From: Sulfurimonas sp.
GTDB lineage: Bacteria > Campylobacterota > Campylobacteria > Campylobacterales > Sulfurimonadaceae
Direction of reading: 5' to 3'
DNA: 64,000 nt
Assembly (NCBI GenBank): GCA_027063505.1
Contig: JAMORO010000068.1
Coordinates: 1 to 64,000, forward strand
Made by a program: the position numbers and the translations under genes
The notes under the pieces: model-generated
Told to the model about the DNA's origin: nothing
The model's input: only the letters and a program-made list of their open reading frames with translations
Databases searched by the model: none
Part shown: piece by piece, positions 1,708 to 40,317 of the stretch
Position numbering within the stretch: position 1 is the first letter of the stretch
Layout of the letters: each line of letters starts with the position of its first letter

Positions 1708-1738
1708 TCTAAAAGAAATTCTCCTTTTCTTTTTACAG

Positions 1739-1770
1739 CATCGTCAGATTTCTGGCGGTGTTCTTTTTTT
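1739..1770 (+). terminator. Rho-independent terminator after the porin gene
   Basis: Bases 1739-1747 pair with 1752-1760 (with a few G-T pairs) around a four-base loop, and the run TTCTTTTTTT follows directly at 1761-1770. Confidence 0.8.
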
Positions 1771-1904: not shown

Positions 1905-2891
1905 ATGATAAAAAACATAATAAAATCTACACTACTGATGTCACTCGCTGCTTCAGTTTCGTTTGCTGCTCCCGCTTCACACTTCAATGTTATCGATGGT
2001 GATATGGAAGATAAATACGAAAAAGAGTTTCTTCCAGCACTTGAAGAGGCTACTGGGTTTTCTCTTTCTGATCCACATGAAAAAATTAATGATGCTTATG
2101 AGAAACGTTATGGTAATCCAAAAGATCCTGATTACGATAAAGCTTGGACAACAAACTTAGACAACTTAGGTTTCTTCTCTATCTCTAATGATGTTGCACT
2201 GAAGCCTATTTTAGAGTCTTCTCCTCAAGCAGCTGGTTTTCAGCCGTTTAACCTTCATATCTATAAGACAAAAGCTGAAAATGTAACTTATATTGGTCAC
2301 TTAGCTCCTGAAACTATGCTTGACGTAACTGGTGTTACAAATGAAGCTGATAGAAAAGCTTATATTGATATGTACAAACCTTTAGATGCTTATGTTACTA
2401 AAGAGTTCGGTGGTAAAGTTATTAACACTACTTTCTCAAAACTTCCAGCACAGCCAATGATGACTTTTGAAGTTGATGTTGATAGAAGTGGAGATGTTGT
2501 TGAGTGGGCTGAAGCTTTCCAAGAAGAGTTAGAAGCTGCATTTGAAGATAAGCACTACATTATCGCAGGATTTAAAAACTTTGTTGAGACTTATGAAGAC
2601 TTAGAGACTCCTATGAAAGGTTATGACCAGTTCTTCGTATATGGTTTATGTCACTTTACATTCTCTTATAACGTGTTTAACAAAGGTCGTCCTGATGCTG
2701 GTGTTTTTGCTCCTTGTGCTATGTACTTCTACATTAAAGAGGGTTCAAACAAAATGATAGTTGGTATGCCACGTCTTTCTGTATGGGGTGCTGTTATGGA
2801 GATCAAAGATCCAGTTAAAAATGAGTGGATTAAGAAAATTGATGATGAAATTATTTCAATTATGAAAGGTTTAGGAGCAAAAGAGATATGA
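1905..2891 (+). CDS. Secreted DUF302-like protein (paralogue 1)
   Basis: This 328-residue protein has a Sec signal peptide (cleavage near residue 21) and no other membrane segment, so it should be periplasmic. Its C-terminal part, with CHFTFSYNVF around Cys249 and FAPCAMYFYIKEG around Cys271 followed by KMIVGMP, resembles the DUF302 fold. It aligns almost residue for residue with the protein encoded at 33256-34278: both have GF.PFNL.IY at residues 111-120 and the two cysteines. Paralogue 3 at 34389 shares the C-terminal block. A TATAAT at 1824-1829 may serve as promoter. The stop overlaps the next start (ATGA), so the two are translationally coupled. Function unknown; the DUF302 label is from recalled pattern. 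Confidence 0.65.
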   Translation: MIKNIIKSTLLMSLAASVSFAAPASHFNVIDGDMEDKYEKEFLPALEEATGFSLSDPHEKINDAYEKRYGNPKDPDYDKAWTTNLDNLGFFSISNDVALKPILESSPQAAGFQPFNLHIYKTKAENVTYIGHLAPETMLDVTGVTNEADRKAYIDMYKPLDAYVTKEFGGKVINTTFSKLPAQPMMTFEVDVDRSGDVVEWAEAFQEELEAAFEDKHYIIAGFKNFVETYEDLETPMKGYDQFFVYGLCHFTFSYNVFNKGRPDAGVFAPCAMYFYIKEGSNKMIVGMPRLSVWGAVMEIKDPVKNEWIKKIDDEIISIMKGLGAKEI

Positions 2892-3748
2892 GAAAACTAT
2901 TAGCACTTATTGCTTCAGTAGCAATACTTTCGTTTAGTGGATGCTCTTCTAGTGCTGTAGCACCAGAGAACACTTCATCTGGTCTTGAAGGAACAAAAGT
3001 AAGTACCTATTTAGTAGGTGCTTATGTTCCTGTTGATGAAGCAAAATCAAAATTAGAAAATGCTGGTTTTGAAGTTCTTGCAGCTTATGCATCTGTAAAA
3101 AAAGGTACAACAATTGTTTTTACAAATGAAGCACTTAAATCAGAAGCTGCAAAACCTGGTCGTGCTCATGCTGCCGTTATTCGTCTTTTTGTAGATGATA
3201 AAGAGAAAATGATAAGTTTTACTAACCCTGTTTATTTTGGAAAAGCATTTATGCAAGATGAGTATAATCATGCAGTATTTAACACTGCTTTAGAGAGTAT
3301 TAATACAGAGTTTTCTGATCTTAAAGGATCAAAAGATGAGTTAGAGTTTGATAAACTTGCAGGATACCACTTTATGATGAGTATGCCTTATTATGCTGAT
3401 GCAGATGCACTTGGAAAACCAAATGCTACAACTGAAGATGCTGTTAATAAAGCAAAAGCTTACAAAAAAGGGAAAGCTATAGTATTTGAACTTAAACTTT
3501 CTGAAACTAGTACACTTTTAGGTTATGACCTTGGTAAACGTACTAAGAAGTTTGTTAAGAAAATTGGTCGTGCTAATGCAGCTATCTTACCATACTGTGT
3601 AGCTATTGAAAATGGTCAAGCAACAGCATTAAATGCTAAGTATTATATTGCTATATCTTACCCTCTTTTAGATATGGGTGGATTTATGGGTATTGCAACT
3701 GTACCAGGTGCAATTACTAAAGATTTAGAGAAAGCTTTTAAAAAGTAA
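2888..3748 (+). CDS. DUF302-like lipoprotein
   Basis: This 286-residue protein starts with a lipoprotein signal (ILSFSGC, lipidated Cys19), so it should be membrane-anchored in the periplasm. Two segments look like DUF302 cores: around residues 50-120 (GFEVLAAYASVKKG, then HAAVIRLFVDD and SFTNPVYFGKAF) and around residues 175-270 (AIVFELKLSE, then ANAAILPYCVAIENG). It is more diverged from the other three DUF302-like proteins of the window than they are from one another. The start overlaps the stop of the preceding gene by four bases. The pair probably works together; no enzymatic motif is evident. Confidence 0.6.
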   Translation: MRKLLALIASVAILSFSGCSSSAVAPENTSSGLEGTKVSTYLVGAYVPVDEAKSKLENAGFEVLAAYASVKKGTTIVFTNEALKSEAAKPGRAHAAVIRLFVDDKEKMISFTNPVYFGKAFMQDEYNHAVFNTALESINTEFSDLKGSKDELEFDKLAGYHFMMSMPYYADADALGKPNATTEDAVNKAKAYKKGKAIVFELKLSETSTLLGYDLGKRTKKFVKKIGRANAAILPYCVAIENGQATALNAKYYIAISYPLLDMGGFMGIATVPGAITKDLEKAFKK

Positions 3749-8563: not shown

Positions 8564-9904
8564 ATGAAACTATTTGGAACAGATGGTGTCCGTGGGGAAG
8601 CGGGAAGTTTTTTAAGTGCTGAAGTTGCGATGCGTGTTGCTATGGCAGCAGGTATTTATCTAAAAGAGCAAGCAGTTACAAACCGTATACTAGTAGGAAA
8701 AGACACACGAAGAAGTGGCTATATGATAGAGAATGCTATCGTATGTGGACTTACTGCAGTTGGATACGATGTAATTGAAATTGGGCCAATGCCAACACCT
8801 GCTATCGCATTTATAACAGAAAATATGCGTTGTGATGCGGGAATAATGATATCAGCATCACATAACTCTTTTGAAGATAATGGGATTAAGCTTTTTGATG
8901 GAAAAGGGGATAAGTTTCCAACAGAGATAGAAAAAGAGATAGAGAATATCTATTTTGATGATGAGAAGATTCAAGAGGCACAAGAGATAGGAAAGGCTAT
9001 TGGTAAAGCTAAGCGTATTGATGATGTAATAGGGCGTTATATAGTACAGTTAAAAAATTCATTTCCTCGTCATCTCTCTTTACAAGGAATGCGTATTGTT
9101 TTAGATACAGCTAATGGAGCTGCTTATAAAGTAGGACCAACAGTACTTGAAGAGCTTGGGGCTGATGTAATTGTTTTACATAATAAACCTGATGGTTTTA
9201 ATATTAATGAAGGGTGTGGTGCACTACATCCTAAAAATGTAAGTGAAGCAGTTATACAGTATAGAGCAGACTTAGGTATCGCTCTTGATGGTGATGCAGA
9301 TAGACTTGTAGTTATAGATGAAAAGGGTGAAGTCGTTGATGGGGATCAACTTCTTGGTGCACTTGGAGTACATCTTAAAGAGCAAGGTGTCCTCAAAGGA
9401 GATGGTATTGTTGCTACTGTTATGAGTAACGCTGGCCTAGATGATTACATGAATGCAAATGGATTGAAACTTTGGCGTTCAAATGTTGGGGATAAACATG
9501 TTCTTGATATTATGAAAAAAGAGGGCATTAACTTTGGTGGTGAACAGAGTGGACATGTGATTATGCATGATTATGCTAAAACTGGTGATGGTTTGGTAAG
9601 TGCACTTCAAGTTTTAGCACTTATACTAGAGAAAAAAGATAAGGCTTCTAAACTGCTTCGTCCTTTTAAACTTTATCCTCAAAAACTAGTTAACTTAAAT
9701 GTTAAAGTGAAGAAACCTTTAGATAAGATAGATGGTTTAAGTGCAATACTAGACTCTTTAGAAAAAGAGAATGTTCGCCATTTAGTACGTTACTCTGGAA
9801 CAGAAAATAAACTTCGTGTACTACTTGAAGCAAAAGATGCAAAATTGATGAATAATCGAATGGATACATTAGTCACATTTTTTGAAAAAGTATTAAATGC
9901 CTAA
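8564..9904 (+). CDS. glmM: Phosphoglucosamine mutase
   Basis: GlmM converts glucosamine-6-phosphate to glucosamine-1-phosphate for UDP-GlcNAc, hence peptidoglycan and LPS. The 446-residue protein has the family start FGTDGVRG, the phosphoserine loop ISASHN (Ser99), the Mg-binding DGDADR loop near residue 240, the sugar-binding GGEQSGH motif and the phosphate-binding RYSGTEN motif near the end. The GGGGA before ATG 8564 fits. lspA starts 8 bases before its stop, so they are co-translated. Confidence 0.97.
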
Positions 9905-10373
9905 TCATACACTCCGTTTAGCTGCTGTATTACTCTTTAGTCTAGGAGGAATTTTTATAATTGATCAAAATATAAAAATGCTTTTTGTCGATGGTTACCG
10001 TTATTATGGTGAATATATGGATCTTATTCTTGTCTATAATAGAGGAGTGGCATTTAGTATGTTCTCTTTTCTAGCAGAGTATCTAAAGTATATACAGCTT
10101 TCTCTTGTAACGGCTGTATTGATATATGTTTTTTATCTTAAAAAGATCTGTTTCGCTCTTCCTGTAGGGATTTTACTTGGAGGAGCATTTTCAAATATTT
10201 ATGATAGGTTTATTCATGAGGGGGTGGTTGATATGTTCTATTATCATGCATGGCCTTACCCGATAGCGGGACAAAATGGATTTGCAGTATTTAATTTTGC
10301 AGATATCATGATTGATTTTGCTGTAGTCTGGCTACTCATCTTAAATTTTAAACCCCATTTGTGTAAAAGATAA
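9897..10373 (+). CDS. lspA: Lipoprotein signal peptidase (signal peptidase II)
   Basis: LspA cleaves the signal peptide of prolipoproteins in the inner membrane; several lipoproteins in this window would be substrates. The 158-residue protein has four hydrophobic segments and both catalytic aspartates, Asp103 in [14 protein letters not shown] and Asp136 in FNFADIMID, plus the conserved [10 protein letters not shown] stretch. The start overlaps glmM by 8 bases. Confidence 0.95.
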
Positions 10374-10459
10374 AAGCTAATTAAAAGCAGATTTTCGCTA
10401 ATATTAGCCAAAATAATAGTTATATAGCTATATAAAGAATTAAAAAATAAAGGAAATTG

Positions 10460-11752
10460 ATGGAAATCAAATCAAATAAAATCGACACTGCTAATGCTGA
10501 AATTACAGCTACAATCTCAATGGATGAGGTAAATGCTAACATAGAAAAAATTGCTAAACAATTAAGTAAAACTGCTAATGTTCAAGGTTTCCGTAAAGGT
10601 AAAGTTCCTGTTGCTATTGTTAAAAAACAGTATGGTCAAAAACTAGTAGAAGATGCTGAAGCTGAAGCACTTCGTGGTGTTTTATCAGAAGGTCTTAAAG
10701 AGTTAGAGATCTCAAATGAGTCTTTAATTGGTGAGCCAAATATTACTAAGTTTGATAAAAGTGAAGATAAAATTGAAGTAGCTGTAAAAGTTGCAATGCG
10801 TCCTTCAATAGAGCTTGGTGATGTAGCTGCTAATGTACCTGACTTTAAAAAACCAGAAGTTGCAACAAAAGATGTAACAGCACGTATTACAGAGATCGCA
10901 CAACAGCAAGCTCCTTTAGTTGATATCAAACGTAATCGTATGATGAAAAAAGGTGATACTGCAGTTATCGACTTTGAAGGTTCTGTTGATGGTGAGCTAT
11001 TTGAAGGTGGTGCTGGAAAAGATTTCGCACTTACTTTAGGTAGTGGTCAGTTTATTCCAGGTTTTGAAGATCAACTTATCGGTGTAAAGCGTGATGAAGA
11101 AGTTACTATCAAGGTTACTTTCCCTGAAAATTATGGTGGAGACTTAGGTGGAAAAGATGCTGAGTTTAAAGTAAAAGTTAATCAAATTCAAGTAAAAGAA
11201 GATGTAGAGATTAACGATGAGTTAGCCGCGAAACTTATGCCAGGTGAAGAGACTCAAACTGTTGAAGAGTTAACTGCTCAAGTTACAAAACAGTTAGAGG
11301 GTGAAGCACTTGCTAAACTTTATAATGAAGATTTAAAACCTAAACTTCTTGAGACTTTAGTTGATACACTTACATTTGACTTACCAGAGTTTGTTGTTGA
11401 ACAAGAGATTGATATGGCATTAAATAAAAAAGCTGGAACTATGAGTGAAGATGAGATTAAAGAGCTTCGTGAAAATGCAGACAAACTTACTGAACTTCGT
11501 GAAACTTTCCGTGAAGAAGCAGCAAGAAGTGTAAGAGCTACATTTATTATTGATGCTTTAGCACAAGAAAAAGGCGTAAAAGTAGAAGAGCAAGAAGTAA
11601 TGCAAACTATCTACTATGAAGCGATGCAAATGGGTCAAGATCCTCAAAAAGCTTATGATCAGTACAAAGATGCAGGGTACCTTCCAGCGATTCAAATGTC
11701 AATGGTAGAAGATAGAGTACTCTCTGGTCTTTTAAACGATAAGATAGCATAG
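10460..11752 (+). CDS. tig: Trigger factor
   Basis: Trigger factor binds the ribosome at the peptide exit and folds nascent chains. The 430-residue protein has the ribosome-binding GFRKGKVP signature near residue 46, an FKBP-type PPIase domain around residues 150-240 (GDTAVIDFEG, GSGQFIPGFE) and a helical C-terminal chaperone region. I chose ATG 10460 because AGGA stands 6 bases upstream; the TTG codon directly before it is a less likely start. clpP follows after 3 bases, the common tig-clpP arrangement. Confidence 0.96.
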   Translation: MEIKSNKIDTANAEITATISMDEVNANIEKIAKQLSKTANVQGFRKGKVPVAIVKKQYGQKLVEDAEAEALRGVLSEGLKELEISNESLIGEPNITKFDKSEDKIEVAVKVAMRPSIELGDVAANVPDFKKPEVATKDVTARITEIAQQQAPLVDIKRNRMMKKGDTAVIDFEGSVDGELFEGGAGKDFALTLGSGQFIPGFEDQLIGVKRDEEVTIKVTFPENYGGDLGGKDAEFKVKVNQIQVKEDVEINDELAAKLMPGEETQTVEELTAQVTKQLEGEALAKLYNEDLKPKLLETLVDTLTFDLPEFVVEQEIDMALNKKAGTMSEDEIKELRENADKLTELRETFREEAARSVRATFIIDALAQEKGVKVEEQEVMQTIYYEAMQMGQDPQKAYDQYKDAGYLPAIQMSMVEDRVLSGLLNDKIA

Positions 11753-11755
11753 GTT

Positions 11756-12346
11756 ATGAGTTATATTCCATATGTAGTAGAAAAAACGGGACGTGGTGAG
11801 CGTTCTTATGATATCTACTCACGTCTGCTTAAAGATAGAATTGTAATGCTAAGTGGAGAAGTAAATGATCAAGTTGCTTCTACAATAGTTGCACAGTTTC
11901 TGTTTCTTGAAGCAGAAGATCCAGAGAAAGACATCTATTTTTATATAAACTCTCCGGGTGGTGTTGTTACTGCTGGAATGGCTATTTTTGATACTATGAA
12001 CTATATTCGTCCAGATGTTGCTACTATCTGTATAGGGCAAGCAGCTTCTATGGGTGCATTCCTTCTCTCCTCTGGTGAAAAAGGAAAACGCTATGCTTTA
12101 CCTCATGCTCGTATTATGATTCACCAACCTCTTGGTGGTGCACAAGGACAAGCTACTGATATTCAGATTCAAGCAGAAGAGATTCTTCGTATGAAAGCTG
12201 AACTCAATGGAATCCTCGCTGAAAATACAGGACAAACTGTAAAACAGGTAGAAAAAGATACTGATCGTGATAACTTTATGAGTGCAACTGAAGCGCAAAA
12301 GTATGGTATGGTTGATGAAGTATTAATTAAAAACGATAAGAAGTAA
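11756..12346 (+). CDS. clpP: ATP-dependent Clp protease proteolytic subunit
   Basis: ClpP forms the barrel-shaped peptidase that works with ClpX or ClpA. The 196-residue protein has the full catalytic triad: Ser98 in GQAASMGA, His123 in MIHQPLGG and Asp172 in DTDRDNFMS. The oligomer handle and [14 protein letters not shown] start are typical. It is coupled to tig (3-base gap), and a GGDEF-like gene and def follow on the same strand. Confidence 0.98.
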
Positions 12347-12355
12347 GGGGTTATA

Positions 12356-13423
12356 ATGGGTGGTACATTAAGAAGTAGAAATCGTAGAAATATTGATGAT
12401 ACTCACGATGTGAGTGGTGCTTCTTCAAGAGCAGGTATAGAATCTTTAACACTAGATACTCCAACAAGTGATATAGAGATTTATGCTAAAGAAGTTCTTC
12501 ATGCCCTCATAGCAGATAATCTTCCTCCAACTCCAAATAACTTTTCACTCTATTTTGATAGACTCTTGGAAGAAAAAAGCGAAAATCTTCGTAAGCAGAT
12601 ACACTCTATGTTAGAGCTTGAAGAGAGTAATGATGCTGAAAATACTATTTTACTAGAGCAGAGTTTAAAACAGGGTTTTGGAAGTATAAAAAATATTTTA
12701 AATGTAACGGCAAATTTATATAAAAATATGTCTTTAATGACAAAAATTTTAGATAAAAGAAAAAGAGAGTTAGGTGAAAAACCTGAAATTCAAGAGGCAG
12801 TTGGTATTGTGGCTACACTTGAAGGTGATGTAAGTAAGTTAAACTCTATTTTAAAAACTCAAAGTTCTCAGATGAAAGGTATTTATGATGAGACAGCTAA
12901 GATTATTAAAAATGTAGAGCATGAGACTATTTTTGATAATCAATTTGGTGTTTATAATAAACGCTATCTTCTACGCAAGGTTGAGCAAGAGATAAAGCTT
13001 TTAAATGAATTTAAACACAAAAGTTCATTAATAATGATAGAGTTATGCCGTGATCTTAGAAAAAGTGTCAAAAATGATAAAGCGATTATTCTTATGACAA
13101 GAACAATTGCTAGATTACTTTTAAAAACTTCCAGACGCAGTGATATTGTTGCACACTATGGGAATGGCGTTTTTTCAATGCTTCTTAAACATACTGATAT
13201 TGAAAGTGCAAAGAAAGCGAGTGAGAGACTTATTGATCTTGTATCAAACTCTAACTTCTTTTTAGCCGATCGCGAGATTCAGTTGAAAATCTCTATTGGT
13301 GTGACATCGATTGAATCTACTTCATCAGTAGAAGAGATTATAGTGAATGCAATGGATGGTATAGAGAAAGCTTATTCACATAAAGATACAGACTATTCTG
13401 TAACACTAAGATCAGCAAAATGA
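12356..13423 (+). CDS. Degenerate GGDEF-domain protein
   Basis: This 355-residue protein has no signal peptide or membrane helix. The C-terminal 160 residues have the layout of a GGDEF (diguanylate cyclase) domain: DNQFGVYNKRYL at the start and LKISIGVTSI near the end. At the active-site hairpin it reads YGNGVF instead of GGDEF, so cyclase activity is very unlikely. The N-terminal 180 residues are helical and may be a coiled coil. It is placed between clpP (9-base gap, AAGGGG site) and def (ATGA overlap), which suggests constitutive expression with core genes. The role is unknown; it may bind a nucleotide or act as a scaffold. Confidence 0.75.
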   Translation: MGGTLRSRNRRNIDDTHDVSGASSRAGIESLTLDTPTSDIEIYAKEVLHALIADNLPPTPNNFSLYFDRLLEEKSENLRKQIHSMLELEESNDAENTILLEQSLKQGFGSIKNILNVTANLYKNMSLMTKILDKRKRELGEKPEIQEAVGIVATLEGDVSKLNSILKTQSSQMKGIYDETAKIIKNVEHETIFDNQFGVYNKRYLLRKVEQEIKLLNEFKHKSSLIMIELCRDLRKSVKNDKAIILMTRTIARLLLKTSRRSDIVAHYGNGVFSMLLKHTDIESAKKASERLIDLVSNSNFFLADREIQLKISIGVTSIESTSSVEEIIVNAMDGIEKAYSHKDTDYSVTLRSAK

Positions 13424-13941
13424 AATTAACGATCGTTGAGTATCCAGATAAGAGACTTCGTTTAAAATCAAAAGCAGTTGTCTCTTTTGATAAAAAACTG
13501 CATGACCTTTTAGACTCAATGTATCCTATAATGATAGATACAAATGGTATTGGTCTTGCAGCTATTCAGGTTGCACACCCTATTAGAGCTCTTATTTTAA
13601 ATATTCCTGATGAAGAGGGTGAACAGTCTGATGAGAATCTCCTTGAGATTATTAACCCTGTGATAACAGATAAAGCGGGGGAAACAGTCTACCAAGAGGG
13701 ATGCCTAAGTGTTCCAAAATTTTATGAAGATATAAAACGTTTTGATACACTTTCTCTAAACTATCAAGATAGAGAGGGGAACACAAAATCTCTCGAAGCT
13801 GATGGGCTCTTAAGTATTGCAATCCAGCATGAAATAGATCACTTAGAGGGCATACTGTTTATTGATAAGTTATCTTACTCTCGTCGTAAAAAGTTTGAAA
13901 AAGAGTATAAACGAATGCTTAAAGAGCGCAAAGAGTCTTAA
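13420..13941 (+). CDS. def: Peptide deformylase
   Basis: Def removes the formyl group from nascent proteins. The 173-residue protein has the three metal-site motifs: GIGLAAIQ (residues 43-50), EGCLSV with Cys95, and QHEIDH with His137, Glu138 and His141. It starts on the ATGA overlap with the GGDEF-like gene, so the group tig, clpP, GGDEF-like and def is one operon of nascent-protein processing. Confidence 0.97.
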   Translation: MKLTIVEYPDKRLRLKSKAVVSFDKKLHDLLDSMYPIMIDTNGIGLAAIQVAHPIRALILNIPDEEGEQSDENLLEIINPVITDKAGETVYQEGCLSVPKFYEDIKRFDTLSLNYQDREGNTKSLEADGLLSIAIQHEIDHLEGILFIDKLSYSRRKKFEKEYKRMLKERKES

Positions 13942-13944
13942 AAG

Positions 13945-13961
13945 TATGGCAATTTGCCATA
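13945..13961 (+). terminator. Possible terminator after def
   Basis: A 17-base palindrome (TATGGCAA, one base, TTGCCATA) starts 4 bases after the def stop and is followed by TTATTTCCCCTTTCTTT. The stem is AT-rich and the T-run is broken, so strength is uncertain. Confidence 0.45.
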
Positions 13962-14022
13962 TTATTTCCCCTTTCTTTACAATCCAGATACTATTAACCA
14001 CTTGAAATAAAGGTGGAAAATA

Positions 14023-15531
14023 ATGAAAACTTTACTCTGTGCTACCTATGAAGGGCTTGATGCAAAAGTTGTTGCAGTTGAGAGTACTCTCACAAAAGGC
14101 TTACCCTCTTTCTCTATTGTAGGGATGGCATCTACTGCTATAACAGAGTCAAAAGAGAGAGTAAAATCTGCACTTTTGAGCAATGATTTTTCCTTTCCTC
14201 CTAAACGCATCACTTTTTCACTTGCTCCAAGTGAGCTTTCAAAATCTGGTTCACAATTTGATCTAAGTATGGCACTTCTTATTTTACTTAACACTGAAGA
14301 GATAGAGTTACATGAGTGGTTTGTCTTTGGAGAGTTGGGACTTGATGGAAGAGTTAAGGAAAATATTCAACTCTATCCACTTATTTTATCTTTAGCAAAT
14401 CAAAATAAAATCCATAAAGCGATTGTTCCAAAGGAGTCTCTGCCTAAACTCTCTAAGATTCCTAATGTAGCATTTTATGGAGTGGAGAGTATGAACGAAG
14501 CTGTTACACTTTTAAAAAACCAAGAACATGCAATACCTAGCTTAAGTAGTAGTGATATTGGGTATCCCTCTTTTACTGTAAAGGGTGAAAAATATTACTA
14601 TCTTAAAGAGTATGAAGAGGACTTTTTAGATGTAAAAGGTCAAGAGATTGCAAAAAGAGCAGCCCTTATCGCAGCTGCAGGGTTTCATAACATCATTTTT
14701 GAGGGGAGTCCAGGTTGTGGTAAGAGTATGATAGCAAGTAGACTTCGTTATATTTTACCACCAATGAGTACTAGTGAGATTTTAGACTTAGCAAAATTAC
14801 AAGTTTTAGATGCAAAAGAACCAACATTTAAACCCCATAGAAATATGCAATCAGTGCATCATACTTCTACGAGTGCAAGTGTATTTGGAGGTGGCAGTTA
14901 TAGAGCAAAAATAGGAGAGGTTGGGCTCTCTCATAATGGGATACTCTTTTTTGATGAACTCCCACACTTTAGTAAGAGTGTTTTAGAGTCTCTTCGTGAG
15001 CCAATGCAAGATAAAAAGATACGTATCTCAAGAGTAAACTCCAAAGTTGAGTATCCAGCCTCTTTTCTTTTTATAGGAGCTATGAACCCTTGTCCTTGTG
15101 GAAATCTACTTGATGAATCAAAAGAGTGTCGCTGTAATGAACTTGAGATACAGAGATATAAAAATAGGCTAAGTGATCCTTTTTTAGATAGGATAGATTT
15201 GAATGTAGTGATGCAAAATGTAACTATTAGTGACAGACCTAGTCTCTCTTCAAAGGAGATGCATAAAGAGATAGTTTCTGTTCATATTCTAACTAAAGAG
15301 AGAGGGCAGGTAGGTTTTAATGCAAATCTAAATGATAAAGAGATAGAGAAGTTTTGTCTCTTAGATAGTGAAGCAAAAGAGGTTTTAGATATGGCAACTA
15401 CTCGTTTTACACTCTCATTTAGAAGTATTAAAAAAGTGCAAAAAGTGGCACGAACTATCGCTGATTTGGATGTAAGTAAAATGATTTTAAAGAAGCATCT
15501 ACTTGAGGCTTTGAGTTATCGTAGAAGATAA
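14023..15531 (+). CDS. comM: YifB/ComM-family Mg-chelatase-like AAA+ protein
   Basis: ComM is a hexameric helicase that aids branch migration during natural transformation. The 502-residue protein has the N-terminal Lon-like fold (LPSFSIVGMASTAITESKER), Walker A GSPGCGKS at residues 228-235, Walker B GILFFDELPHF, the MNPCPCG cysteine segment near residue 355 and the C-terminal Mg-chelatase domain ending in ALSYRR. It stands alone with an AAAGGTGG site, and its end is only 11 bases from metH on the other strand. Confidence 0.92.
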   Translation: MKTLLCATYEGLDAKVVAVESTLTKGLPSFSIVGMASTAITESKERVKSALLSNDFSFPPKRITFSLAPSELSKSGSQFDLSMALLILLNTEEIELHEWFVFGELGLDGRVKENIQLYPLILSLANQNKIHKAIVPKESLPKLSKIPNVAFYGVESMNEAVTLLKNQEHAIPSLSSSDIGYPSFTVKGEKYYYLKEYEEDFLDVKGQEIAKRAALIAAAGFHNIIFEGSPGCGKSMIASRLRYILPPMSTSEILDLAKLQVLDAKEPTFKPHRNMQSVHHTSTSASVFGGGSYRAKIGEVGLSHNGILFFDELPHFSKSVLESLREPMQDKKIRISRVNSKVEYPASFLFIGAMNPCPCGNLLDESKECRCNELEIQRYKNRLSDPFLDRIDLNVVMQNVTISDRPSLSSKEMHKEIVSVHILTKERGQVGFNANLNDKEIEKFCLLDSEAKEVLDMATTRFTLSFRSIKKVQKVARTIADLDVSKMILKKHLLEALSYRRR

Positions 15532-15542
15532 CTCAGAAGCTA

Positions 15543-18500: not shown

Positions 18501-19031
18501 ACAAGCATGTAGGGCCGCTTTTATCTGAAGAGGATCTTGACAAGTCTCTAGTAAAAATATATCAGTTCCACCCTCGATAAGTGCCTTACAAAAGTCAGTA
18601 TATCCTTCAAACATCTCATCATAAGTGATATGCCCTAGTGATGGAAGCTTTGTACCAGGTCCTACACTTCCTAAACAAAAACGAGGATGCTCAGGTGTAC
18701 TAAAGGCTTCACACTGGCGTTTTACAAGTGCAGCTCCTGCTTTTGTCAGTTCATAGGCTCTATCACCTATCTGATACTCATCTAAAACCCATGAAAAGGA
18801 TCCAAAAGTATTTGTGGTTATAAGGTCAGCACCTGCTGTAAGATAGGCTGAAAATATCTCTTCCATAATATCAGGAGCTGTAACATTTAGGATTTCATTA
18901 CACCCTTCATTCCCTTCCCAAGCTTCTTTTGAAATTTTATCATCGCGCTGCTGGAGCTGTGTACCCATAGCTCCATCAATAATGAGAGGACGTTTTTTTA
19001 TTGTCTCTAAAATATAATTTTTAGTATTCAT
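15543..19031 (-). CDS. metH: Cobalamin-dependent methionine synthase
   Basis: MetH moves a methyl group from methyl-tetrahydrofolate to homocysteine through cobalamin. All four modules are present in 1162 residues. The homocysteine domain has zinc ligands Cys226 (GFNCGTG) and Cys293/294 (GGCCGTTPQH). The pterin domain starts near VGERSNATGSKAF (342-353). The B12 domain has the axial-histidine motif DVHDVGKN at 730-737. The activation domain occupies about 870-1162, with YGYWPCRSDD in its SAM region. It is a little shorter than the E. coli enzyme. No SAM or cobalamin riboswitch is evident in the 142 bases upstream. Confidence 0.97.
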   Translation of the reverse strand: MNTKNYILETIKKRPLIIDGAMGTQLQQRDDKISKEAWEGNEGCNEILNVTAPDIMEEIFSAYLTAGADLITTNTFGSFSWVLDEYQIGDRAYELTKAGAALVKRQCEAFSTPEHPRFCLGSVGPGTKLPSLGHITYDEMFEGYTDFCKALIEGGTDIFLLETCQDPLQIKAALHACQEANRQMKTELPIMVSVTIELSGTMLIGTDAQTIATIMEPFDILSLGFNCGTGPEQVLKHVKTLSELWHKPISVHSNAGLPQNRGGYTYYPMGPDEFVAQQEKFLNYDGVSFLGGCCGTTPQHIRALVNAVTNKMPKAPTGSHENSIASLFNTVPLMQEPAPLLVGERSNATGSKAFRELLLNENYEGTLSVAQQQVRAGAHVVDVNVGFAGRDETKDMTEVMAMYAQKIALPLMPDSTQTKGLETALKHIGGKAILNSVNLEDGEPKFDAVCQLAKKYGASLVCLTIDEVGMAKSIEDKLKVADRIIDLATNRHGIKKEDLVFDVLTFTLGSGDEEYFEAGINTIEAIRQLRKKHPEVGAILGLSNISFGLDKDARPYLNSMFLHHCVQAGLTSVIINVKHIIPLNKIPEEDQKICDDLIFNRLPNGEALFRFIEHFSSKEAVDNDAVDEAYLAMSDEEKIAKLLMDGDKERMIPLVEEARKTIKPEVIVNEILIDAMKVVGELFGSGQMQLPFVLQSAETMKKTVDHLNPYLPKVEKEVDTTLSLGTVKGDVHDVGKNLVDIILSNNGYKVNNLGIKVDLDSFLADMEKGHVSALGMSGLLVKSTQVMLENLGILKEKGITIPILLGGAALTRNFIDDFCRPAYDGPIFYCKDAFDGVTAMSRIEAGNMNTNLHPDAPKIERVKKKEVIIPPFEELKMPSRDVNVPTPPFWGRREIKLTQQQVEMAFDWINHKILFKSRWGYSSKGMTKEAYEKQLEEVVWPAYEKLKARFLDEVLFEPTIVYGYWPCRSDDNKLLIFDESEGYFSESEINRQLLEDVKKNAIKEFSFPRQRKAPHRALSDFFHADRHDVIALTCVSAGAKLSEVEREIYERGDYTEYYQFHGLGVELAEALAEIAHKQIRLDLNIADGEKATLADVQMNKYQGSRYSFGYAACPDLELNRPLFDLLKPEEFGIELSETFQIHPEQSTSALVVYHPNATYYNV

Positions 19032-19173
19032 CTGTTTTAATCTTTTATGCTAAATTAATTTATATATCTTACCATTTTTGTGCATAAAGAATTCTGTAGA
19101 AATTTTTATGCTTTAAAGAGTACCATAATGATTTATGGCTATAATGTAAGTAGAAAATTATAAAGGAGTTTTT

Positions 19174-33255: not shown

Positions 33256-34278
33256 TTATTTTGCTAAAAGTGGATTTATATTTTCTGTATCTATACCACC
33301 GAGTGAGTGTATAATAGCAGGGATCTCTGTATCTAGTTGATGGATTTTTTCAAGTTTATCTGCATCAGTGATATTAAGTGCTGCAGCCCAAGCACCTAGT
33401 GTTGGCATACCAATAACTATCTTATTCTCACCCTCTTTTATATAGGCATACATTGAACATGGTGCAAACATCGCAGCTTTAGGAAGTGGGTTCTTTCCAT
33501 CAAAAATAGTATACGAGAAAGGGATATGACAGAGTGACCATACAACATAAGCACTATATCCAGGAAGAGCATCCTCTTCACTGTTGAGACTCTCTTTCAT
33601 GTTATAAAAACCAGCAATGATGTAGCCTTTTGTTTCAAATGCTGACTCATATCTCTCCTGAAAATCATCAAAAAAATCATCAATATCTTCAGGCTCATCA
33701 AACGCTATCTCAAAGTTCATCATAGTCTTCTTAGCATAGCCTTGAAGTTTTGTGTATGACTTAGTCGCTTTTGGGTACTTACTCTCAATAGCTGCATCAA
33801 GAGGAATAAACATCTCTGTAAATTTTGCTCTTACATTTTTATCTTCTATCTGTAAGATATCTAGTGCTGCTTGAGGATAGATATGTGTGATGACTGTTTT
33901 ATGATCTGCTTTTTTTCTATAGATAACAAGATTAAAAGGAGTAAAACCACCAATACGAGGATCTGTGTTAAAAAGCTCTCTCGCTTTAGAGTCATTGACA
34001 AGTGAAGAGAAAGAGAGTTGCTCTAGCTTCGTCTCTCCTACCTGTTGTACATAAACATTTTGAACATTATGGTGTGGATCATTAAGAAAGAAACCAGTTT
34101 TTTCTACTGGTTCTTTTGTAAACTCGAAAAAGTCTTTATCAAACTCCGTAGTAGCTGTATCTATAGTATACTCTACAGCTAGTTTAGTGTTGTTACTTGG
34201 AGTAAATTTTGCACTCAGAGGTGTTAAAAGTAGACTAGAAAGAGTAGCTAAAATAAGTGTTTTTTTGAGAAGTTGCAT
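33256..34278 (-). CDS. Secreted DUF302-like protein (paralogue 2)
   Basis: This 340-residue protein has a Sec signal peptide ending near residue 23 (PLSA-KF) and no further membrane segment. It matches the protein at 1905-2891 along its length: FFLNDPHH near 63-70, GFTPFNLVIY at 111-120, a FFDDF.E..E acidic helix, CHIPFSYTIF around Cys250 and FAPCSMYAYIKEGENK around Cys274. It is thus a duplicate of that gene, 30 kb away. It lies downstream of another DUF302-like gene, with a hairpin between them. The function is unknown, but nearness to sox genes suggests a link with sulfur. Confidence 0.65.
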   Translation of the reverse strand: MQLLKKTLILATLSSLLLTPLSAKFTPSNNTKLAVEYTIDTATTEFDKDFFEFTKEPVEKTGFFLNDPHHNVQNVYVQQVGETKLEQLSFSSLVNDSKARELFNTDPRIGGFTPFNLVIYRKKADHKTVITHIYPQAALDILQIEDKNVRAKFTEMFIPLDAAIESKYPKATKSYTKLQGYAKKTMMNFEIAFDEPEDIDDFFDDFQERYESAFETKGYIIAGFYNMKESLNSEEDALPGYSAYVVWSLCHIPFSYTIFDGKNPLPKAAMFAPCSMYAYIKEGENKIVIGMPTLGAWAAALNITDADKLEKIHQLDTEIPAIIHSLGGIDTENINPLLAK

Positions 34279-34388: not shown

Positions 34389-35372
34389 CTACTCAGTCAT
34401 ATCAGTGATGATAGCTTCGATATAGCCTTGAGCTTCACGAAGTTTTTTAGTACCCTCTTCATCTTCTGTCATGCCAATCGTAGTGATCCAGTTGTCAACA
34501 GATAAGAATCCCATGTACATTTTGTTTTCGCCAACTTTTTTATAAAGATAGAAAGAACATGGAGCCCAAGCACCTGCTTCTGGATGATCTTTAGATACAG
34601 GATAGATTACATCAAATTTACAGATAGAGTAAGTATGGTAAAAGTCATAAACACCAGTATACCCTTGGTCATCAAAAATCTCTTCTTGAACATTTGTGTA
34701 GTTAGGAAGTAAGAAACCTAAAGGCTCCATTTCACCTTCAAATTCAGCTTCAAAATCTTCGATAAACTCTTCTGCAGTTTGATCATCAAGTTCAACTTCC
34801 ATAGAGAAGTTAGTTGCTAAAGATTTGTTAGGGAATTTAACTGTGTGGTTTAACTCTTTAAATGAACCATCAGGCATTGCAGTTTTAAGTCCTTTTTTGA
34901 TTAAAGCAGCATATGCCATTAAGTCTGGATCAGTTACAGGAATGTTAGTCGCTCTAGCCATACCGTTGATAGTAAGAGTACTGATATTCATACAACCCTC
35001 TTTACCTTCCCAAATAGACATAGTAAGTGGTGTTAATGCACCAAAACTTGGATACTTTTTGATAAGTTTGTATGTTAGTTCATTGTTTACATACATAGCA
35101 AGGTTATACACTTTGTAGTGTAGTTTACCAAATCTTGTACCAAATGGTTTATTCATATCGTTGTTACCAGGAACACTTAAACCTACTGAGTCAAAAGCTT
35201 TTTCAATAGACTTTGCAGTGATTTTACCATCAGCATTTGGTGTAGAGAATACCTGTACATCTTGTATTCTCTTAGGTTTTTCAACAACAGGAGCACTTGG
35301 TGCTTCATTGTTACAACCAACAATAGACATTGCTACTAATGCAGCGAGTATCAGAGAGTATATTTTTTTCAT
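34389..35372 (-). CDS. DUF302-like lipoprotein (paralogue 3)
   Basis: This 327-residue protein has a lipoprotein signal (MSIVGC, Cys20). The C-terminal block aligns with the two secreted paralogues: CKFDVIYPVS around Cys251, WAPCSFYLYKKVGENKMYMG around Cys272. It also has the acidic EEFIEDFEAEF helix near 201-211. The N-terminal half is different and has an extra cysteine (Cys127). An AAGGAATTC site precedes the start. Likely a periplasmic partner of the protein encoded just downstream. Confidence 0.65.
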   Translation of the reverse strand: MKKIYSLILAALVAMSIVGCNNEAPSAPVVEKPKRIQDVQVFSTPNADGKITAKSIEKAFDSVGLSVPGNNDMNKPFGTRFGKLHYKVYNLAMYVNNELTYKLIKKYPSFGALTPLTMSIWEGKEGCMNISTLTINGMARATNIPVTDPDLMAYAALIKKGLKTAMPDGSFKELNHTVKFPNKSLATNFSMEVELDDQTAEEFIEDFEAEFEGEMEPLGFLLPNYTNVQEEIFDDQGYTGVYDFYHTYSICKFDVIYPVSKDHPEAGAWAPCSFYLYKKVGENKMYMGFLSVDNWITTIGMTEDEEGTKKLREAQGYIEAIITDMTE

Positions 35373-35432: not shown

Positions 35433-35885
35433 TTAATAGTTTAAAATTTCTACTTTATCATCTAGCACTATTTCAGAACTTCCCTCAATGACTCTAGCAA
35501 AGATCCCACGATCATTTTTGAGTAGTTTAGGAAGTTTAGAATTTACTGTTGATAATCCCTTACAGAGTGTACAGTGTTGTGTGATTTCAAGAATTGTATC
35601 TCCAATCTTGATCTTATCACCATGTTGCAAAGTATATGGATTTATATCAATAAGAATATTTTCTCCTAAAGAACCAGTTTGTAATTTTATGCCATTTTTT
35701 ATGGAGAGTTCGTAGCTCTCTTTAGATGTAATTAAAATTGAACGCATTGGGTCTTTAGAGTAAAACTTATCATTGAGTATGCCATTAGGGTCTACTTTTA
35801 TACCTGTTACACTCTCTCTGCCTTTAGATTTATCTGCATCTGTTATGAAGAGCTCTAAGACTTTTCCTTCTGATTTAGTTCTCAT
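35433..35885 (-). CDS. MOSC-domain protein
   Basis: This 150-residue protein is a single MOSC domain with the motif GSLGENI at residues 71-77 and a conserved cysteine region CTLCKG (Cys105, Cys108). MOSC domains occur in molybdenum cofactor sulfurases and in sulfur-carrier enzymes such as YiiM. Here it overlaps the thioredoxin-like gene by 11 bases, at the end of the soxCDYZ run. A role in molybdenum cofactor handling for SoxC or in sulfur transfer is plausible but inferred from position. Confidence 0.85.
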   Translation of the reverse strand: MRTKSEGKVLELFITDADKSKGRESVTGIKVDPNGILNDKFYSKDPMRSILITSKESYELSIKNGIKLQTGSLGENILIDINPYTLQHGDKIKIGDTILEITQHCTLCKGLSTVNSKLPKLLKNDRGIFARVIEGSSEIVLDDKVEILNY

Positions 35886-36399
35886 GTTTTCTCGGATCTA
35901 TTATTTCGTTATCTTGACTTTTCTGAAAGCCTATCTTCTCTTTATAAGTATCTAGTTTCATAGAGCTATTAGAATGGCTATAAATATAGTGTAGAATGAC
36001 TAAAAACTCTGACTCATCGTTATAGCCTACACTTGCATACTTAATATCACCACCATCATCTAAAAAAAGTGCAGAGGGGTAGAAGTCATAACCGATTCTT
36101 TTGGCAAGACATATACCACCACTCTTCTCTCCTTTATAGATATACGTATCTTTATGTGAGATATTTATCTGTATAACTTGAAAGTTATTCTCTAAGTACT
36201 CTGCGACATCATCATCTTCAAGGGTAAACTCCTGCATACTATTACAGTAGCTACAGCCAACTCTATGGAGATATAGCATTACTTCTTTGTTAGAATTATG
36301 TGCATTTTTTAAGATTTTGTCTATATTGATTTCGTTTGAGAGTAGAGAAGTTTGAAGAAGTGCAAGTGCAAAAAAAGTCTTAAAAAGTTTTTTTAGCAT
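35875..36399 (-). CDS. Periplasmic thioredoxin-fold protein (SoxW-like)
   Basis: This 174-residue protein has a signal peptide (residues 1-21) and a thioredoxin-like domain with active-site CSYC (Cys49, Cys52) in YLHRVGCSYCNSMQ and the cis-proline YPSALF. SoxW-type thioredoxins keep the SoxY carrier cysteine reduced or repair it, and the gene stands 45 bases after soxZ on the same strand. The C-terminus is longer than the domain needs. The assignment to SoxW is by position and fold. Confidence 0.75.
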   Translation of the reverse strand: MLKKLFKTFFALALLQTSLLSNEINIDKILKNAHNSNKEVMLYLHRVGCSYCNSMQEFTLEDDDVAEYLENNFQVIQINISHKDTYIYKGEKSGGICLAKRIGYDFYPSALFLDDGGDIKYASVGYNDESEFLVILHYIYSHSNSSMKLDTYKEKIGFQKSQDNEIIDPRKHEN

Positions 36400-36444: not shown

Positions 36445-36753
36445 TTATTTAATTTTACCTTTACCTTTACCAGTTTTACCTTTACGGTCAGTCCATGACA
36501 TTAAAAGTTTGTCACCTTTTTTGAAACCATCTGCTTTAAATTGGAATTTAAAGATAGGGTTTTTAGAAAGGAACTGAGAAGTAGACATGTCAAAAACAGT
36601 CTCTCCATTTACAGTACCAGTTAGGTGAAAAATAAAGTTAGCGTTTTCACGATCACCAGTTTTTTTCTCCATCATGTTAAATGTAGACATTTCGTGTTTA
36701 GCCATAGCTTTAACTTTTATAACACCATTTTTTAATTTTGCTTTTACTTTCAT
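36445..36753 (-). CDS. soxZ: Thiosulfate oxidation carrier protein SoxZ
   Basis: SoxZ pairs with SoxY to hold sulfur intermediates during thiosulfate oxidation. This 102-residue protein begins KVKAKLKNGVIKVKAMAKHEM and ends with KGDKLLMSWTDRKG, the usual SoxZ Ig-like pattern, and has no signal peptide; SoxZ is exported together with SoxY. It follows soxY by 46 bases. Confidence 0.93.
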   Translation of the reverse strand: MKVKAKLKNGVIKVKAMAKHEMSTFNMMEKKTGDRENANFIFHLTGTVNGETVFDMSTSQFLSKNPIFKFQFKADGFKKGDKLLMSWTDRKGKTGKGKGKIK

Positions 36754-36799: not shown

Positions 36800-37252
36800 T
36801 TAACCTTCACATCCACCAAGTGCAACATCTAAAGATTGTTTAGCTGCATATAATTTACCATCTGTACCTTCAGCAACGACAGTAATAGCACCTGATTTAC
36901 CCATTTTAATTTTAATAGAGTATTTGTTAATAGAGTATTTGTTTGTAGTAATTGCACATACAGCAGCTTCAGGGTTTGCATCTTGAAATACTGCGATAGA
37001 TTTAATATCTTTATCACAAGAAAAATCAACAGGGATTGCACCACCATTACTCGCTACTTTTGGAGCTGTTAAAGAAACACCTTCCATTACTAAATCAGTA
37101 GAACCGTACATTGCTTTGATAGCATCATCAACAGTGTGAGCTGACCAAACAGCTGGTCTAGTTTTTCTATAATCTTCTGCATTTACACTAGCAGGTACAG
37201 CAGCTAAAGCTAATGCACCTAGAGTTACGTTTAAAAAATTTCTTCTTTCCAT
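36800..37252 (-). CDS. soxY: Sulfur carrier protein SoxY
   Basis: SoxY carries thiosulfate-derived sulfur on a C-terminal cysteine. The 150-residue protein begins ERRNFLNVTLGALALAA, a Tat-type signal that co-exports SoxZ, and ends in GGCEG with carrier Cys148; the textbook swinging arm is GGCGG, so one glycine is replaced by Glu. Residues 104-113 contain NKYSI twice, from an exact 15-base tandem duplication at 36914-36943. It sits between soxD and soxZ, as expected in the second sox cluster of Campylobacterota. Confidence 0.93.
   Translation of the reverse strand: MERRNFLNVTLGALALAAVPASVNAEDYRKTRPAVWSAHTVDDAIKAMYGSTDLVMEGVSLTAPKVASNGGAIPVDFSCDKDIKSIAVFQDANPEAAVCAITTNKYSINKYSIKIKMGKSGAITVVAEGTDGKLYAAKQSLDVALGGCEG
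36914..36943. repeat. 15-base tandem duplication inside soxY
   Basis: AATAGAGTATTTGTT occurs twice in direct succession (36914-36928 and 36929-36943) with no mismatch. It is in frame and adds five residues. The identity of the copies suggests a recent slippage event. Confidence 0.9.
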
Positions 37253-37266
37253 AATTATTCCTTTTG

Positions 37267-38412
37267 TTATTTTACTTTACCAGTAGTGATGTAATCAACT
37301 ACAGTTTTAAAGTTAGCATCTGAAAGGCTTGTTCCACCTTTAGCAGGCATACCACCCTCTGTTCCATGAATAGCGTTTGCATAAACTTTATCCATACCCT
37401 TAGTTAAGTATCCAGCCCATTCAGCTGAACCTGGAGAGAGGTAAGATGAGTGACACATAGCACAAGAATTTTTATACTCTTTAACTGGGTCTACTTTTAC
37501 CTCTTTTTCTACAGGTAAGTTTCTAGTACTATCCATTGGAGGTAAGAAGTCTTTAATCCCACCATTTTGAATATATCTAACTTTTACACTATCTTTTTGA
37601 CAATCTTTTAGACAACGATCTTCGTATTTTACTTTAAGTGCACCAAAGTTAGTTGGATTAGCATAGTAAGCACGTACATTGTCACGACCATTTGGTCCAT
37701 CAATATTTGGTTCAAAACCATCTACATTTGGCATTTTAACTTTAAGAAGTTTTGCACGATCGAGTACATACTCATCATCAACTTCTTCACCATCAATCTC
37801 AAACTCATTAATATTTAAAATATATGCAGTAAGTGCATAAGTCTCATCAGTACTTAATGATTTACTAAATGGGTGAGGCATACCATCTTTGATGTACCAG
37901 AAAAGTGTACTTACTTGTGGCCAGTATGAACCAAATACACGTACCGGACCATCTGCTTCAGGATCTTTCCATCTGTTGTTAGTAAGTGTTTTCTGCATCT
38001 CTACAGCGTTTCCTTTAGAGAGTGATGGATAACCACCACCACCTGAACCAAAGTCACCGTGACACATAACACACTGTGCTTCATAAAGCTCTTCACCATC
38101 TTCAACTGAACCACTACCTTCTGGTAAACCTGTACCATCTGGCATAACATCTTTATTCCAAGCTTTTAGTTCATTAGCAGTTGGCACACGACCATTGTTA
38201 ATATTTGCTGGAATGTTAGTGTTTACATAGTAAGGACCAGTTTTATCATTTACAACAGGATAAACAACACCACCATCGATAGTTACTTTGCCATTTAATG
38301 TATTTGTAGCAGTTGAAGTATTCGTGTTTCCACCACCACAACCTACAGCAAATAGTGCAACTGTTGCTGCTACAGAAGCAGAAATAATTAATTTACGATC
38401 TAATTTGAACAT
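37267..38412 (-). CDS. soxD: Di-haem cytochrome c subunit SoxD of sulfane dehydrogenase
   Basis: SoxD takes electrons from the SoxC molybdenum site. The 381-residue protein has two CxxCH haem sites: Cys114-Cys117-His118 (AQCVMCHGD) and Cys317-Cys320-His321 (NSCAMCHSS). The N-terminus has a lipoprotein-like signal (FAVGCGGG, Cys25), so it may be membrane-anchored. Methionines suitable as axial ligands are in DGMPHPF and GGMPAKG. The start overlaps the soxC end by 20 bases. Confidence 0.92.
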   Translation of the reverse strand: MFKLDRKLIISASVAATVALFAVGCGGGNTNTSTATNTLNGKVTIDGGVVYPVVNDKTGPYYVNTNIPANINNGRVPTANELKAWNKDVMPDGTGLPEGSGSVEDGEELYEAQCVMCHGDFGSGGGGYPSLSKGNAVEMQKTLTNNRWKDPEADGPVRVFGSYWPQVSTLFWYIKDGMPHPFSKSLSTDETYALTAYILNINEFEIDGEEVDDEYVLDRAKLLKVKMPNVDGFEPNIDGPNGRDNVRAYYANPTNFGALKVKYEDRCLKDCQKDSVKVRYIQNGGIKDFLPPMDSTRNLPVEKEVKVDPVKEYKNSCAMCHSSYLSPGSAEWAGYLTKGMDKVYANAIHGTEGGMPAKGGTSLSDANFKTVVDYITTGKVK

Positions 38413-39688
38413 GGTTTACCTCTCCTGTCTCTGTTACTTCCCAAGTCTCTACCGCATTTCTGTGGTAAACTGATTCAACACCCATTACACTAACCTCTTG
38501 GTCAATTGTAGGTTGAATATATCCAGCATCATCCATAGCACGAGAAGTTAGGTAAAGTTTATCACCTTTCTTGTATGTATGCATGTAAGACCAACGAGTC
38601 CATGATTTTGGAAGTACTAGACCTTTAAGTTTAGCAGCTTTATAGTTGTCTCCACCATCAAAAGAGATGTCAACAGCAGTAATAGTACCCATACCTGACC
38701 ATGCAAGTCCTTCGATCTCAACAACATCACCATCTTTAAGATGTGACCAGTCAATCTCTGGAGATGGAGAAGTGACAGTTGAGTTAACTTCATTTGCATA
38801 GAAATGCTGAATAGCTTTACCAGTTGGTTTTAGTGCAGTATATTTAGAAGTCTCTTCTTTAGCATACCATGGCTCAGCAGAAAAATCTAAACGCTTTAAC
38901 CATTTAACACATAAGTTCCCTTCCCAACCTGGAAGAAGAAGTCTTACTGGGTAACCTTGTTCTGGACGAAGTGCTTCACCATTTTGTCCCCAAACGATCA
39001 TAGCATCATCAAGAATCTTATCAATAGGAACAGAACGTCCCATTTCAGAGTTATCAGAACCCTCTGCAAGCATCCAGTTCGCTTCATCTTTAAGACCTAA
39101 ATCTTCTAAGATAGTTTTGATGTAAACACCAGTCCACTCAGCACAAGACATAAAACCTTTTGCAAATTGGATAGAGTTGAACTGTGGTCCACGCCACTCT
39201 TGTCCACCATTAGCAGGACACTCAATAAAGTGAGTACGAGTTACAGATGGATAGCGTTTTAGTTGCTCTAAAGTAAGAACGATAGGCTTCTCAACAAGAC
39301 CATGAATCATTAAACGGTATTCATTTGGATCTACATGTGCAACACCACCATGTGAACGTGAGAAAAACAGACCATTTGGTGTAATGATTCCCATTGACTC
39401 TTGTATAGGTGTTACTGCGATTGATGCTCTAAAGTTCCCTGAAGCAAGAAGTTTAGTATTTCTTCTTAATACATTATGCTCGTATTTTGAAGGTACACCA
39501 TAACGGTTTTTTGTTACTGGATCACCCCATTTTTGGCCCCATGAGGGATGGTGCATGATTGCTGGGTCATCAGCTCTAGCATTTGATGATACAAGAGATG
39601 TTCCAGCAATAGCAGTTACTGACATAGCAGCTGTTTTTCTGAAAAAATCTCTTCTATCAATTTCTTGATTAGATTTTTTATTATCCAA
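38393..39688 (-). CDS. soxC: Sulfane dehydrogenase molybdenum subunit SoxC
   Basis: SoxC oxidises the sulfane sulfur left on SoxY, giving up to six electrons to SoxD. The 431-residue protein has a Tat signal (RRDFF at residues 12-16) and the sulfite-oxidase fold: molybdenum ligand Cys157 in HFIECPANGG, and VRLLLPGWEGNLCVKWL in the cofactor region. The start is an unusual TTG, but AAAGGAG lies 5 bases before it and the Tat signal begins right after, so I accept it. It heads the run soxC-soxD-soxY-soxZ. moaC and mobA, 3 to 5 kb upstream, supply its cofactor pathway. Confidence 0.94.
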   Translation of the reverse strand: MDNKKSNQEIDRRDFFRKTAAMSVTAIAGTSLVSSNARADDPAIMHHPSWGQKWGDPVTKNRYGVPSKYEHNVLRRNTKLLASGNFRASIAVTPIQESMGIITPNGLFFSRSHGGVAHVDPNEYRLMIHGLVEKPIVLTLEQLKRYPSVTRTHFIECPANGGQEWRGPQFNSIQFAKGFMSCAEWTGVYIKTILEDLGLKDEANWMLAEGSDNSEMGRSVPIDKILDDAMIVWGQNGEALRPEQGYPVRLLLPGWEGNLCVKWLKRLDFSAEPWYAKEETSKYTALKPTGKAIQHFYANEVNSTVTSPSPEIDWSHLKDGDVVEIEGLAWSGMGTITAVDISFDGGDNYKAAKLKGLVLPKSWTRWSYMHTYKKGDKLYLTSRAMDDAGYIQPTIDQEVSVMGVESVYHRNAVETWEVTETGEVNHVQIRS

Positions 39689-40174: not shown

Positions 40175-40317
40175 GAGTGCAACTTTTTGGCTTGTTCTTG
40201 AAGCCATGTGGAGATCTCTTTCATACTTGAAAAGTAAAGTTTTGCTTTAAAACCATTAGTTTTGTACTCTTCTAAGGCTTTTTGCATTACTGCTACTTGT
40301 TGTTCTCTATCTTTCAT
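40171..40317 (-). CDS. Small antitoxin-like protein (48 residues)
   Basis: This short frame encodes 48 residues, MKDREQQVAVMQKALEEYKT followed by NGFKAKLYFSSMKEISTWLQ and EQAKKLHS. It starts 2 bases after the stop of the DUF2231 gene and its TGA overlaps the ATG of the toxin-like gene. The size, helical and basic character and strict coupling fit an antitoxin. I recognise no named antitoxin family. Confidence 0.5.
   Translation of the reverse strand: MKDREQQVAVMQKALEEYKTNGFKAKLYFSSMKEISTWLQEQAKKLHS

Follow-up and report, generated by a model that had tools for sequence, protein, structure and literature searches.

Tandem DUF302 proteins of Sulfurimonas and related bacteria: a class linked to sox genes and a class paired with a predicted lipoprotein beside a FadL-type channel

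The tandem DUF302 proteins of Campylobacterales fall into a class that is tied to Sox and a class that is not, and these are here separated. Members of the first close sox gene clusters, whereas those of the second are paired with, or fused to, a partner family without a name and are linked to one subfamily of FadL-type outer-membrane channels; the cysteine pair of the second DUF302 domain is conserved in both. These patterns tentatively suggest, at rather less than even confidence, two related but separable systems, namely Sox accessory proteins (D and C in table 1, together with a sister class, E) and a FadL-linked envelope unit (A and B) for a sulfur-reactive hydrophobic compound.

The window, i.e., the whole 64,000-nucleotide stretch analyzed here, is one contig of a Sulfurimonas-type assembly (2.1 Mb, 86 contigs, 93% complete), with Sulfurimonas and Sulfuricurvum as the nearest relatives that bear a name. 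Its genes were found where the original prediction had placed them (table 1), and the porin ahead of A is indeed of the FadL type, its PF03349 score lying well above the cut-off of 29.7 bits. A separate terminator precedes A, so the FadL gene and A-B are neighbors that are probably carried on separate transcripts. Some 30 kb from A-B, the minus strand reads soxC, soxD, soxY, soxZ, a thioredoxin-like gene, a MOSC gene, D, and C, the last gene of the cluster, which is without a B partner. Family models support the soxC, soxY, and soxZ assignments already proposed, while soxD encodes a cytochrome c assigned by position. One SoxY and one SoxZ were found in the window genome (G000), both encoded in soxCDYZ. 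No soxXYZAB cluster was seen in the assembly at its 93% completeness, and the absence of this cluster has reportedly been noted likewise in Sulfurimonas sp. CVO. Just upstream of soxC lies an ORF of 104 aa (39893-40207, minus strand) with weak similarity to ParE (19.6 bits, below cut-off). Its place is conserved in Sulfurimonas and Sulfuricurvum, and an antitoxin was not seen; instead of a toxin, it may encode a protein related to Sox.

Table 1. Features of the two loci, with positions in the window and the basis of each assignment
Feature	Position	Strand	Basis
FadL/OMPP1/TodX-type outer-membrane channel, 387 aa	544..1707	+	PF03349, 87.1 bits; subfamily co-occurring with B
Rho-independent terminator of the FadL gene	1737..1762	+	11-pair stem followed by T run; RNA fold -14.7 kcal/mol, z -5.4
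A, exported tandem-DUF302 protein, 328 aa	1905..2891	+	AlphaFold2 model, Foldseek; Cys249 and Cys271 in second domain
B, predicted lipoprotein, 286 aa, family without a name	2888..3748	+	Lipobox FSGC; no Pfam match; adjacent or fused to A across families
C, exported tandem-DUF302 protein of A type	33256..34278	-	DUF302, 29.0 bits; tree; synteny in Sulfurimonas and Sulfuricurvum
D, tandem-DUF302 lipoprotein, sox-operon class	34389..35372	-	DUF302, 33.1 bits; tree; SoxZ neighbor across genomes
MOSC-domain protein	35433..35885	-	PF03473, 35.4 bits; kept between soxZ and D
Thioredoxin-like protein, CSYC motif, probably exported	35875..36399	-	PF13098, 39.2 bits
SoxZ	36445..36753	-	TIGR04490, 93 bits, over cut-off
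SoxY, C-terminus GGCEG	36800..37252	-	PF13501, 80 bits; TIGR04488, 102 bits, under its cut-off of 125
SoxD-position cytochrome c	37267..38412	-	PF13442, 70 bits, two stretches; assigned by position after soxC
SoxC, sulfane dehydrogenase molybdenum subunit	38393..39688	-	TIGR04555, 580.7 bits

To our knowledge, DUF302 has no settled function. A and C had been described as aligning almost residue for residue; the two cysteines are indeed shared, but at an identity of 37.6% over 290 residues (E about 1e-63) that description is too strong. D is a true paralog of both, although a distant one (23-26% identity, E about 1e-15). With the Pfam DUF302 model (PF03625, cut-off 23 bits), C and D score above the threshold and A, at 21.6 bits, falls just under it; A is counted as a DUF302 protein because of its fold and its homology to C. 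The fold was tested on A, whose AlphaFold2 model (pLDDT 89.5, built on a shallow alignment of 21 sequences) has the DUF302 structure 1q9u as its best Foldseek match (E 1.4e-6, TM 0.78 on the target), with 1j3m and 7tj1 also recovered. The last of these is a PDB entry named fluoride transporter CrcB, and the name looks wrong for the chain that resembles the DUF302 part of A. The N- and C-terminal halves of A match each other in profile comparison (96.8% match probability), indicating a tandem of two DUF302 domains. Both cysteines of the second domain are present in all 72 collected relatives, whatever their class, and in A they (Cys249 and Cys271) occupy the same alignment columns as the cysteines of the CNP and PC motifs in 1q9u; they lie about 22 residues apart and form no CxxC motif. 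The first domain of A has lost both. Elsewhere in the same genome, a small exported protein with a single DUF302 domain is encoded directly after the gene of a membrane-anchored multihaem cytochrome c (L001 1354-1797; G000 contig C35).

The suggestion that B too is DUF302-like was rejected, profile, hhalign, and Foldseek searches all being negative. No match to B was found in Pfam, the DUF302 model included, or among PDB sequences, and NCBIfam gave only weak lipoprotein-signal matches. Comparison with A by hhalign (9%) revealed no profile similarity, and the B model (pLDDT 81.7, likewise on a shallow alignment) retrieved no credible PDB fold, the best Foldseek hits (E 0.03) being to unrelated folds; a DUF302-like order of strands and helices is an impression gained by eye only. 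The near-invariant residues of the family are aromatic or aliphatic, or Pro, Gly, Asn, Ala, and Met, with none charged and none Cys. Apart from the lipobox (FSGC, ending at residue 19) B has no conserved Cys. This lipobox and that of D (IVGC, ending at residue 20) are pattern matches, and such calls are not conserved across relatives. The proposed pattern of a secreted protein plus a lipoprotein holds in the window genome, but in Sulfuricurvum and Sulfurovum a lipobox is often missing from B or from D.

The association of A with B is tight. The start of B overlaps the stop of A by 4 bp, and in our sample of 150 Campylobacterales genomes B was found within 1.5 kb of an A-family gene 21 times, in 17 genomes and always on the same strand. 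In many Sulfurovum-type genomes the two are fused in one reading frame across a low-complexity or coiled linker, some fusions having two A parts. At the genus level B is present in 14 of the 15 genera with A/C proteins (p = 1.9e-9; the genomes are mutually related, so p-values here and below serve only as guides, and genus-level counts soften the effect of kinship). Taken together, the overlap, the same-strand adjacency, the fusions, and the genus-level co-occurrence indicate a shared function and constitute strong evidence that A and B form one functional unit. The window genome also encodes a second B-family protein, of 346 aa, that has no A neighbor (G000:C6:41679-42434; L084 5677-6714), and solo copies similar to it occur in several genomes. 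Among plasmid records B was not found, and the only DUF302 relative was one in Sulfurovum mangrovi.

The branching pattern of a 72-sequence tree separates D/E from A/C with full support. D falls inside the sox-operon clade, while C belongs with the A/C proteins, where its closest neighbors are A proteins carrying a fused B domain; C is a member of this second clade whose gene became part of the soxCDYZ cluster. The original prediction had taken A-B and C-D for two copies of one duplicated unit of a secreted protein and a lipoprotein. This is ruled out by the tree and by the lack of homology between B and D, the two pairs having arisen differently.

The two classes also differ in their relation to Sox. 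Across genomes D closes the arrangement soxCDYZ-(thioredoxin)-MOSC, and the sister class E, which was not found in the window assembly, closes soxXYZAB-(porin)-MBL-thioredoxin-DsrE. SoxZ is present in 17 of 17 genera with the D/E class and in all 21 genomes that have D/E only (class counts for hits outside the fetched loci rest on scores and neighborhood), and 33 of 67 family hits have SoxZ no more than 10 kb away, where about 0.9 would be expected. The Sox link of C comes from its operon position only, as seen in Sulfurimonas and Sulfuricurvum clusters. The predicted co-occurrence with sox is thus overwhelming for the D class, whereas A-B as a class shows no association at the genus level (p = 0.47). 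SoxY and SoxZ are both absent from 9 of the 20 genomes of the A-B class, although incomplete metagenome-assembled genomes can hide genes; all nine carry A, and most of them B. Hand-over to Sox is therefore not a general role of A-B. One genome has three tandem copies, identical in their scores, of a unit of about 3.9 kb that encodes an MBL-like protein, two thioredoxin-like proteins with cytochrome-type N-termini, DsrE, and a D/E-class DUF302 protein (L074, G141:C1:1755000-1774900, 8640-19899); this is either a recent amplification or an assembly artefact.

The expected link between A-B and FadL, on the other hand, was supported. Of the genomes with B, 21 of 28 carry the FadL subfamily found in the window, compared with 18 of the 122 that lack B (p = 1.2e-9), and the association persists at the genus level for B (p = 4.7e-5) and for A/C (p = 3e-4). 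A FadL gene adjoins A or B in six genomes (G000, G126, G137, G095, G131, and G071), against 0.16 expected, and likewise in the loci L017, L019, and L021; many A-B pairs have no adjoining FadL. Acyl-CoA dehydrogenase is absent from 12 of the 13 A-B genomes tested, which weakens the case for a FadL role in fatty-acid catabolism, and we rejected that role on this ground. Regarding other neighbors, four Sulfuricurvum-type loci have soxCDYZ directly downstream of A-B, and in one survey genome (G042) an A+B fusion gene, accompanied by a MOSC gene, is divergent from soxC. Genes for a split RND pump and HlyD-type genes occur near the A-B fusion in L016, L017, L018, L075, and L096; the pump consists of two half-length ACR_tran genes, identified in L017, with pairs of similar size elsewhere. 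An apolipoprotein-like amphipathic protein is encoded near the fusion in L017 and L075. In a sox-less genome (G004; L094 2378-3483), a gene with an SCP-2 lipid-transfer domain and two DUF2173 genes precede A.

From these linkages we infer the following chemical steps, substrate, and direction of transfer. D, E, and C would be periplasmic Sox accessory proteins whose second domain most likely works through its cysteine pair. They may carry or exchange sulfane sulfur, or a thiol/disulfide state, between the SoxYZ carrier and the products of the genes immediately preceding theirs, which are thioredoxin-like, DsrE, or MOSC proteins. The A-B unit would combine a DUF302 protein bearing the cysteine pair with a cysteine-free partner, lipid-anchored in Sulfurimonas, and beside FadL it most likely receives a hydrophobic compound that reacts with sulfur, for example S8 or a polysulfide chain, once this has crossed the outer membrane. 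The cysteines of A could then open or bind the compound, to be passed on to Sox where present and otherwise to another periplasmic acceptor. S8 or polysulfide is the leading candidate substrate where Sox is present. Against the reading as a whole count the failure of A-B as a class to track Sox, the separate termination of FadL in the window, the many A-B pairs without an adjoining FadL, and the lack of any sulfur-specific enzyme seen next to A-B in sox-less genomes. In the single relay originally proposed, running from FadL through A-B to Sox, the Sox-accessory position of D and C and the tie of A-B to FadL stand, but A-B does not track sox. Such a relay is compatible with the Sulfuricurvum and G042 loci and is not established. 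Its most far-reaching form makes FadL-A-B the S8 entry route of Campylobacterota, with FadL admitting S8, A-B binding it and opening its ring at the cysteine pair, and D and C transferring the chain so formed to SoxYZ, or, where Sox is missing, with the unit feeding S0 reduction or another acceptor; this we consider distinctly unlikely.

The main rival to the two-system reading is that FadL-A-B serves the envelope more generally, handling some hydrophobic substance that is not sulfur (lipids, quinone-like or other small hydrophobic molecules), with only D, C, and E being Sox-related and C recruited later from an A-type gene. The failure of A-B to track Sox fits this, as do the SCP-2 gene directly upstream of A in the sox-less G004, the split RND pump and apolipoprotein-like amphipathic protein encoded ahead of A-B in Sulfurovum-type genomes, and the lack of reactive residues in B. 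Yet the absence of acyl-CoA dehydrogenase argues that this FadL does not serve fatty-acid catabolism, A-B directly adjoins soxCDYZ in Sulfuricurvum and G042, a member of the A/C clade sits in a sox operon, and A proteins invariably retain their two cysteines. We regard a non-sulfur module as a real, if doubtful, possibility. That A-B, FadL, and sox lie close by chance, with A-B having no shared function, would be in keeping with the separation of the two window loci by about 30 kb and the position of A-B outside the sox operon here; it is strongly disfavored, to the point of deserving almost no credence, by the A-B fusions and conserved overlap, by the excess of family hits near SoxZ (33/67 against 0.9 expected), and by FadL standing beside A or B in 6 genomes against 0.16 expected.

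Other explanations concern the chemistry of the cysteine pair. D, C, and E might be maturation or repair factors of Sox, keeping the SoxY carrier cysteine reduced or handling metal, with A-B doing the same for other envelope proteins. As such a role would lead one to expect, the DUF302 genes come after thioredoxin-like genes in each of the two sox clusters, and none of the relatives has lost the cysteine pair. Canonical DUF302 genes also occur in cyanobacterial sqr contexts. Moreover, members are found in metal and arsenic contexts (PMC5061849, PMC7760498), which favors the maturation reading and, over this whole range of contexts, means that the cysteine pair need not stand for sulfur transfer. 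Against it, the obligate partnership of A with B and the FadL linkage are left unexplained, and cysteines about 22 residues apart are not the CxxC motif; we judge this explanation unlikely, though not negligible. Very improbable is that the sox-linked DUF302 proteins hydrolyze or bind trithionate or polythionates: D closes soxCDYZ, which in these bacteria is the cluster linked to S0, nothing in our data indicates polythionates, and we know of no catalytic residue set in DUF302. The idea derives from speculation about Acidithiobacillia, where the gene concerned lies between soxA and soxB (PMC5037610).

The two-system reading, if correct, would bear on how solid sulfur reaches the oxidation machinery. 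The soxCDYZ cluster is associated with S0 in Campylobacterota (PMC10045233, PMC9122950). According to PMC10045233, the membrane proteins that transport S0 still await confirmation, and how S0 is activated is not known. A-B and D/C are testable candidates for this task, narrowing the uptake and activation of solid S8 by neutrophilic sulfur oxidizers to named genes with conserved cysteines, together with the unnamed partner family B and one specific FadL subfamily. DUF302 genes in sox clusters have been reported before, without a function, between soxA and soxB in Acidithiobacillia, with a speculated trithionate role (PMC5037610), and between soxF and soxH in Sulfitobacter (PMC11034169). A literature search that covered few subscription-journal papers found no account of tandem DUF302 proteins, the B family, or a link to FadL, and no paper tying DUF302 to S0 growth in Sulfurimonas.

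Compared with known systems, the fold of A, the aligned cysteine pair, and the scores of C and D above the Pfam cut-off place these proteins with DUF302 (PF03625; 1q9u, 1j3m). The solved structures, however, have one domain, whereas A, C, and D are exported and have two in tandem, with cysteines in the second only. The product of 544-1707 belongs to the FadL/OMPP1/TodX family (PF03349, 87.1 over 29.7 bits), whose known members take up fatty acids or aromatic hydrocarbons, but its subfamily co-occurs with B, and 12/13 A-B genomes lack acyl-CoA dehydrogenase. SoxW thioredoxin and DsrE occupy the same operon position next to D/E, and a periplasmic cysteine chemistry is plausible here as well; unlike them, A, C, and D have neither a thioredoxin fold nor a CxxC motif. 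Finally, D, C, and E are encoded within sox clusters, as are the published DUF302 proteins of Acidithiobacillia and Sulfitobacter. The Acidithiobacillia protein has 191 aa, in contrast to the tandem proteins of about 307-340 aa encoded here at the end of soxXYZAB and soxCDYZ, and Campylobacterota have, in addition, an A-type paralog paired with B.
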